The position numbers and the translations under genes are program-made. The notes beneath the pieces are model-generated. The model was given only the letters and a program-made list of their open reading frames with translations, was not told the DNA's origin and searched no databases. A DNA stretch of 32,714 nucleotides from Flavobacteriales bacterium (GTDB lineage Bacteria > Bacteroidota > Bacteroidia > Flavobacteriales_C > GCA-002722245), in assembly GCA_002720635.1 (NCBI GenBank), contig PBJD01000022.1:1-32714 (forward strand), in the 5' to 3' direction. This document shows, piece by piece, positions 22,258 through 23,233 of the stretch; position 1 is the stretch's first letter, and every line of letters starts with the position of its first letter.

Positions 22258-22394
22258 GCGCCTAAGGCGCAAAAATATTGAATTATGTCGTGACTAAATA
22301 ACGATTTAGTCAGAAATAACGATAGTAGTATATTATATGTGAAAATTACGCCCCAAAAGGGGTGATAATAGCGATAGCGATAGTGGTAATTATC
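22258..22394 (-). promoter_or_regulatory. candidate thr attenuator hairpins
   Basis: Between leader peptide and thrA, the minus-strand RNA can form several stems: GAUAAU...AUUAUC across the Thr/Ile codons (22394-22364), CCCC-UUUU-GGGG at the end of the leader ORF (22362-22351), a 9-base stem with loop CGUU (22312-22291), and GCGCC-UUA-GGCGC (22270-22258). GGGGCG of the leader end could also pair with CGCCUU of the last stem, giving mutually exclusive structures. None is followed by a clear U-run, so an intrinsic terminator is not proven. Confidence 0.45.
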
Positions 22395-22432
22395 GATGTG
22401 TTTTGAATTGTATTTATGCTATTATTTCTCAT
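22346..22432 (-). CDS. thrL: threonine operon leader peptide
   Basis: This 28-codon ORF is too short for the ORF track. It reads MRNNSINTIQNTSIITTI then AIAIITPFGA and stop. Thirteen of 28 residues are Thr (5) or Ile (8), the amino acids made from the homoserine branch, as in the known thr leader peptide of enteric bacteria. It lies directly after an exact -7 element and upstream of thrA, and is followed by alternative hairpins. Its role would be to stall the ribosome when charged Thr- or Ile-tRNA is scarce and so allow transcription into thrABC. The gene symbol is by analogy; the sequence is not homologous to enteric thrL. Confidence 0.75.
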   Translation of the reverse strand: MRNNSINTIQNTSIITTIAIAIITPFGA

Positions 22433-22448: not shown

Positions 22449-22495
22449 CAAAGAAAAACCAAATTAAATGTAAACCGTAAATTAGCTATTCATTA

Positions 22496-23233
22496 ATGCG
22501 CAGAAAAATCACCATATTATTTTTCATGTACTCTCTAATATTTTCGGGATGTTCTCCAAAATTTCATGACAGTTATAGCGGAAAAGGAGACGGAAGAAGC
22601 TATAAAATCAGGTTTAATGATTCCTACGGAGGAGGAAGTGGGAGAAGAAGCCAACTGGGATATAAAGATTCATACCGTGGTAGAACTGGTGGACGAAAAA
22701 ACCAAATGCGCTATCGAGATGCATACAGCGGACAAGCAGGTGGACGAAGAAGCCAAATGAGGTTCAGGGACACATACAGTGGAGTAACAGGTGGACGAAA
22801 AAATCAAATGCGATTCAGAGATTCTTATGGTGGAAGTAGTGGACGAAAAAATCAACACGGATTTAAAGATTCTTACGGAGGGGAAAATGGACGAAAACGA
22901 CAACATGGTTTCAGGGATTCTTATGGAAGTAAAAGTAAAGGCAGAAAAGGACAACTTGGATTTAAAGATTCCTACAGCTCTGCTAACTCCAGAAAATTAA
23001 ACTCAAAATTTAAAGATTCATACAGTTCAAATAATTCGAGAAAATTAAACTCAAAATTTAAAGATTCATACAGCTCAAAACAAATCGGTAATTCTGAAAG
23101 CAAAAGTATTATTGGAATTAAATTCAAACTATTTAAAAAACGGGATAGTTATAACTCTCCCTCCAAAAAACATAAAATTCCCAAAAAAAAGAAAAAAATA
23201 AATCGTTCAACTCGATTTGAAGGAATGAAGTAA
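22496..23233 (+). CDS. basic DSY-repeat lipoprotein of unknown function
   Basis: The 245-residue protein has a lipoprotein signal (hydrophobic ILFFMYSLIFSG, then Cys19). The mature protein is almost wholly tandem repeats of 16-18 residues with the core [FY]-[KR]-D-S-Y-[SG]-G and a following GGRKNQ- or GRRSQ-type linker; I count twelve D-[STA]-Y cores between residues 25 and about 220. It is very rich in Arg, Lys, Gly, Ser and Tyr, with a poly-Lys patch (IPKKKKKINRS) near the end, so it is strongly basic and probably disordered. I recognise no family. Such a protein could bind a polyanion such as LPS, peptidoglycan-linked polymer or DNA at the envelope; this is inference. It is divergent from thrABC; a thioesterase gene follows after 56 bases. 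Overlapping ORFs in other frames are repeat shadows. Confidence 0.78.
   Translation: MRRKITILFFMYSLIFSGCSPKFHDSYSGKGDGRSYKIRFNDSYGGGSGRRSQLGYKDSYRGRTGGRKNQMRYRDAYSGQAGGRRSQMRFRDTYSGVTGGRKNQMRFRDSYGGSSGRKNQHGFKDSYGGENGRKRQHGFRDSYGSKSKGRKGQLGFKDSYSSANSRKLNSKFKDSYSSNNSRKLNSKFKDSYSSKQIGNSESKSIIGIKFKLFKKRDSYNSPSKKHKIPKKKKKINRSTRFEGMK
22568..23152 (+). repeat. tandem repeats coding for the DSY motif
   Basis: Units of 48-54 bases recur through the lipoprotein gene. Spacings of 51 bases are seen for the GGTGGACG segments starting at 22688, 22739 and 22790; the last units are 48 bases. The best-preserved pair is 35 identical bases at 22991-23025 and 23039-23073. Earlier units have drifted more. Confidence 0.85.

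Follow-up and report, generated by a model that had tools for sequence, protein, structure and literature searches.

A predicted lipoprotein with evenly spaced aromatic-Asp-Ser-aromatic cores in the sampled genomes of one Bacteroidia family

The lipoprotein gene and its surroundings

The window, by which we mean the whole 32,714-nucleotide stretch of Flavobacteriales DNA analysed here, carries a gene for a putative repeat lipoprotein, the parts of which are listed in Table 1. The coordinates, the reading frame and the lipobox with its Cys19 that had been given in an initial annotation were all recovered when derived again from the sequence as given. The doubt then raised over the frame can be set aside: an alternative frame is ruled out both by the 7–24 stops in each of the remaining five frames over the gene and by purifying selection on the annotated one. 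Comparison with the closest congener, G002, gave a dN/dS of 0.136 with dS near saturation, and the close pair G001/G003 gave 0.134 with dS unsaturated (0.31). Because dN/dS is ∼0.13, we conclude that the frame is a real protein-coding gene under purifying selection. The neighbouring thioesterase, thrA and M23 genes have values of 0.02–0.10; the lipoprotein gene changes faster than these neighbours, yet is clearly constrained.

Table 1. Features discussed in the text; positions are those of the window unless preceded by another label
Feature	Position	Strand	Basis
Repeat lipoprotein gene	22496..23233	+	Open frame, 245 aa + stop; dN/dS 0.13 versus congeners; homologues in 10/10 family genomes
Predicted type II signal peptide, lipobox I-F-S-G-C	22496..22552	+	Hydrophobic stretch; Cys invariant in 10/10 homologues; no LES acidic residues after it
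Codon of Cys19 (predicted lipidated)	22550-22552	+	
Array of eleven units, core [FY][KRHN]D[STA]Y	22562..23137	+	Core positions and spacing; unit statistics; TRF period 48-51
Twelfth core (KRDSY) and Lys-rich C-terminal tail	23138..23230	+	Congener alignment; AF2
CGTAAATTAG, possible promoter element	22476..22485	+	Upstream alignment; just before start codon
Thr/Ile-rich 28-codon leader peptide (MRNNSINTIQNTSIITTIAIAIITPFGA) before thrA, stem-loops after it	22346-22432	-	
Ferritin and short-form loci	L021 7192-8104; L022 5954-6859; L023 6761-7664; L020 6514-7417		
Short-form gene of G005, meeting a run of 11 A	L010 1360-2143	-	
659-residue predicted exported protein of G004	L097 1774-3753	+	

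In the host genus the lipoprotein gene is divergent from thrA in all five genomes, and a 4HBT thioesterase gene lies next to it in four of the five. In G000 (the window genome), G002 and G003 it is upstream of, and on the same strand as, the thioesterase gene and then a gene of the M23 cell-wall peptidase family, neighbours that give a weak hint of an envelope context. The short form of the gene, found in a sister genus, lies 22–31 bp downstream of a ferritin gene in four of five genomes, in an operon-like arrangement; G009 gave no ferritin match and has a gene for a 1041-residue protein of no assigned family upstream of the short form. Where ferritin genes were found in the congeners, they sit on contigs other than that of the lipoprotein gene. 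Because the neighbourhood differs between the genera (thrA/thioesterase versus ferritin), context says little.

The upstream element CGTAAATTAG, which may act as a promoter element for the lipoprotein gene, is conserved in three congeners out of five and reads CGTAAA--AG in the remaining two. On the thrA side, a leader of the same type is present in all five congeners, ending in ITPFGA, ITPFGV or ITPIGV. Together, leader and stem-loops resemble an attenuator by which threonine/isoleucine would control the thrABC operon; the leader region gave no Rfam match at the gathering score.

Repeat architecture, composition and predicted location

Twelve D[STA]Y cores were counted in the protein, at residues 25, 42, 58, 75, 92, 109, 125, 141, 158, 174, 190 and 217, with core-to-core spacings of 17, 16, 17, 17, 17, 16, 16, 17, 16, 16 and 27. 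The count bears out the initial description of about twelve units and a Lys-rich tail, the cores being mostly 16–17 residues apart. Ten units of the array are 16–17 residues long and the eleventh precedes the longer 27-residue interval; this final interval and the tail have no repeat likeness. Two cores depart from DSY, one being DAY and the other DTY. Shuffling of the mature sequence (20,000 shuffles) produced a mean of 0.17 cores and a maximum of three, as against the actual twelve, and TRF reports a matching tandem repeat in the DNA with periods of 48–51 bp. Of the 73 units in the count, 65 have an aromatic residue at position 1 and 68 a Ser or Thr at position 4, with Asp at position 3 and Tyr or Phe at position 5; the counting pattern demanded the Asp and the final aromatic, whose frequencies are hence inflated. 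The tail motif IPKKKKKxxRSTxFEG is near-invariant in an alignment of the five congeners, is missing in the short forms, and was not seen in the other open frames of the 1.46 Mb of sequence examined.

The mature protein (227 residues) is strongly basic, as had been claimed, with a pI of 10.7 and a net charge of +44. Its main residues are Ser (16.7%), Lys (15.0%), Gly (14.1%), Arg (11.5%) and Tyr (6.6%), so that Lys, beside the Gly, Arg, Ser and Tyr first described as dominant, is as prominent as Gly and Arg. Set beside 181 predicted exported proteins sampled from the clade, the highest two of which have +0.233 and +0.156, the protein with its charge per residue of +0.194 would come second. In the homologues described below the net charge lies between +40 and +51 for the long forms and between +15 and +18 for the short forms, with a pI of 10–11 throughout. 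Separately, the 659-residue protein of G004 has an N-terminal region that, judged only by eye, resembles a transglutaminase; the rest of the chain is very rich in Lys, and the net charge is about +100.

The mature lipoprotein is predicted to be disordered, in line with the initial annotation. A charge-hydropathy plot places it on the disordered side and far from the dividing line, and AF2, run on a five-row alignment so shallow and repetitive that failure by itself is no proof of disorder, gave a mean pLDDT of 44.9 with the signal helix as sole structural element. Residues 221–240 reached a pLDDT of about 75 with no secondary structure.

Read by eye, the N-terminus MRRKITILFFMYSLIFSGC is that of a signal peptidase II substrate, with basic residues, a hydrophobic stretch and a lipobox ending in Cys; the lipobox, and the retention of its Cys in all ten homologues, support the prediction of an exported, lipid-anchored protein. 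Lipoproteins of Bacteroidota are marked for surface export by acidic residues roughly at +3 to +6 from the Cys (PMC5080379), and SPII proteins without this signal, the LES, have been classed as periplasm-facing (PMC11885536). Taking as LES at least two acidic residues within approximately this +3 to +6 range, with a polar or basic residue before them, we found none in any of the five long forms, in which residues +2 to +6 are SPKFH, SPKFH, HTKFK, NPSFK and NPTFK; in the short forms an acidic pair, DD, appears no earlier than +7/+8. Because the published surface-export signal is absent, an orientation towards the periplasm is the better prediction, although a criterion drawn from published Bacteroidota may differ in the host lineage. 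SusD proteins, as a source of the clade's own LES, are not present in its genomes. The absence of an LES from all five long forms leaves unsupported the surface location that binding of extracellular DNA or outer-leaflet LPS would require, and weakens both ideas.

Distribution of the family and the question of O-glycosylation

Searches of Pfam (best E-value 1.7), NCBIfam and PDB were all empty for the window protein, in agreement with its first description as belonging to no recognised family. Homologues were present in all ten sampled genomes of the host's family, which comprise two genera with five genomes each: the host genus has a long form in all five (204–228 mature residues, 9–12 cores) and the sister genus a short form in all five (83–100 mature residues, 4–5 cores). 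The window genome (78% complete) holds a single copy and no paralogues. A profile of all ten homologues found no carrier among 385 further genomes of the class (395 searched), a search of a phylum sample with a long-form profile added none from 395 genomes (396 searched), and one viral-contig scan likewise gave none. Scanning GTDB species contigs at the protein level matched two congeners only, both recorded as metagenome-assembled ‘Flavobacteriales bacterium’. Among the genomes searched, the comparison with Bacteroidota suggested at the outset places the homologues in one taxonomic family only, and the repeat lipoprotein is a conserved, clade-specific new protein family of recognisable kind rather than an orphan.

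Identity between the genera is about 32%, yet the 16–17-residue period is retained in both, and spacing is 15–18 everywhere but in the two closest long forms, where the last interval departs from that range. The linker reads G-R-[KR]-x-Q-x-G in the host genus and is made of Ser/Thr and Lys in the sister genus, where Gly is only 5–10%. The likeness to SYGG/RGG domains that had been remarked on thus holds for the host genus and is lost in its sister, which shows that such a resemblance can arise by accident of composition within a single genus. Because the linkers change and Gly falls, it is core, spacing and charge that endure; the constants across genera are an [FY]-x-D-[ST]-[YF] core every 16–17 residues and positive charge, and not the RGG/SYGG composition. 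In the pairs G001/G003, G006/G008 and G006/G009 the best match of every unit is the unit at the equivalent place, which argues that the array is not rapidly reshuffled; unit order is blurred in more distant congeners.

Past the 11-A run met by the short-form gene of G005, a second frame with the same repeats stays open for ∼180 codons, without a common start codon, and ends in a tail resembling that of the long forms. This frame could represent a slippage product, a decayed extension or an assembly error.

Bacteroidota O-glycosylate exported proteins at D(S/T)X (papers including PMC10897501), the third position of which is never R, H, K, W or Y in glycoproteomes (PMC10897501). The D-S/T-aromatic cores could be read as such sequons, which would make the protein a periodically glycosylated, mucin-like lipoprotein; we consider this very unlikely. 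We called frames in ∼1 Mb from G002, G004 and G006 plus the window, and a simple signal rule of our own divided the proteins into predicted exported and cytoplasmic sets. D[ST][LIVMAT] occurred at 1.96 times expectation in 181 exported proteins versus 1.17 times in 486 cytoplasmic ones, with values of 1.17 and 1.03, respectively, for a reverse-motif control. Because of this enrichment in exported proteins beyond the control, the lineage most likely has a general O-glycosylation system. In each of the five short forms a single canonical D[ST]V follows the lipobox directly. However, nearly all units have Tyr in the third place of the D[ST]X triplet, exported proteins of the clade show no enrichment of D[ST]Y (1.12 times versus 0.90 times in cytoplasmic ones), and canonical sequons are lacking from the window protein, every D[ST]X in it being DSY or DTY. 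On these three grounds the sequon reading was mostly rejected, and the DSY array is probably no sequon array. In the same exported proteins D[ST]C is over-represented (2.28 times, 13 sites) and D[ST]G under-represented (0.38 times), a bias that may mark the lineage's own sequon preference.

Possible role in the envelope and comparison with known systems

The function of the lipoprotein rests on inference. Tentatively, and with a probability of about 0.4, we favour an outer-membrane-anchored, periplasm-facing, disordered and multivalent cationic spacer or glue acting on peptidoglycan or an anionic envelope partner. Lipidation and disorder are predicted here, and we infer the outer-membrane location, the periplasmic orientation, the peptidoglycan ligand and the spacer role. 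The lipid anchor would hold the protein to the outer membrane, facing the periplasm, where the basic flexible linkers would bind peptidoglycan, itself anionic, or an anionic partner; the repeated aromatic-Asp-Ser-aromatic cores would supply evenly spaced contact points, and unit number would set the reach of the chain. We favour this role because of the invariant Cys, the missing LES, the strong charge, the disorder, the retained period and the purifying selection, and CotG, discussed below, offers a precedent for a repeat-built cationic spacer. OmpA-domain matches number 7–21 per family genome and, with such proteins so plentiful, any tether role of the lipoprotein would be additional, never the sole membrane-wall link. 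Counting against a spacer or glue is the invariant core Asp, which plain charge attraction to peptidoglycan does not explain.

The chief rival, possible though doubtful, is that the repeats are tandem short linear motifs, each [FY]xD[ST][YF] core docking on a specific folded envelope partner (candidates include beta-barrels, OmpA-domain proteins and secretion components) and the basic linkers serving as spacers, so that multivalency would matter and charge would not. Survival of the core, Asp included, across genera while the linkers go from Gly/Arg to Ser/Lys speaks for docking, as do the narrow range of spacing outside that one last interval and the near-invariant tail of the long forms, such as is expected of a docking motif; but a partner is neither known nor predicted, the Asp and aromatic frequencies are those inflated by the counting pattern, and positive charge is likewise kept in all forms. 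Docking and glue differ in whether core mutants would matter. A bolder idea, which we think unlikely, is that this family-level Bacteroidia lineage has evolved a core envelope component peculiar to it, in which evenly spaced [FY]xD[ST][YF] motifs on a lipid anchor serve as a molecular ruler, or as a multivalent ladder for docking, from outer membrane to cell wall, with a length class set for each genus. The view taken initially, of a surface cationic adhesin or matrix protein on LPS, extracellular DNA or anionic surfaces, or of Tyr-Arg condensates, agrees with the Tyr, Arg, Gly and Ser composition, the strong charge and the predicted disorder, but with the surface-export signal absent and the Gly/Arg-rich composition lost in the sister genus it seems quite improbable.

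We have described what appears to be a clean clade-specific envelope protein family, with ten carriers in ten genomes and none found outside among those searched, in which a repeat lipoprotein seems to have been built by unit duplication and held by purifying selection. The regular spacing of its cores is more than a purely disordered chain would need. Should the wall or a fixed partner prove to be its ligand, the lipoprotein would offer a tractable example of envelope tethering or spacing in Bacteroidota without a folded domain; we found nothing direct in the literature on disordered repeat lipoproteins of this phylum.

Eukaryotic RGG/SYGG RNA-binding domains share with the long forms only their richness in Gly, Arg, Ser and Tyr and their predicted disorder, whereas the lipoprotein is predicted to be exported and lipid-anchored, keeps a strict 16–17-residue period and loses that composition in the sister genus. 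RcsF of Escherichia coli, which to our knowledge has no repeats, differs in its folded signalling domain and has no sequence relation to the lipoprotein. It does resemble it as an outer-membrane lipoprotein with a positively charged disordered linker beside the lipid anchor (PMC7553776). The spore-coat protein CotG is disordered and supercharged, with cationic repeats serving as a spacer, and CotG-like proteins arose separately in different species via minigene elongation (PMC9765600). Like the window lipoprotein, CotG, a surface-layer protein with a net charge of about +57, is small and intrinsically disordered, and its tandem repeats are positively charged (PMC9765600). By prediction the window protein shares the supercharged, disordered and tandemly repeated character of CotG-like proteins. 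It differs in that CotG is a Firmicutes spore protein dependent on the CotH kinase, with repeats of 6–7 residues as against 16–17, and no sequence relation between the two was found. Unlike the lipoprotein, CotG presumably has neither signal peptide nor lipid anchor. That the lipoprotein is a CotG-type kinase substrate, with CotH-like kinases phosphorylating Ser and phosphate balancing the charge, is extremely unlikely: CotH-family genes occur in seven of the ten genomes, the window genome included, and the lipoprotein is Ser- and Lys-rich as is CotG, but these genes lie on contigs other than the lipoprotein's, and G004, G005 and G007 (95–100% complete) keep the lipoprotein with no CotH match. 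Since three of ten carriers, all at least 95% complete, lack CotH, it is no obligate partner here, and CotH-dependent phosphorylation as a requirement was rejected. Unrelated to the lipoprotein in sequence, anchor and repeat length, CotG would nevertheless be its closest working analogue.
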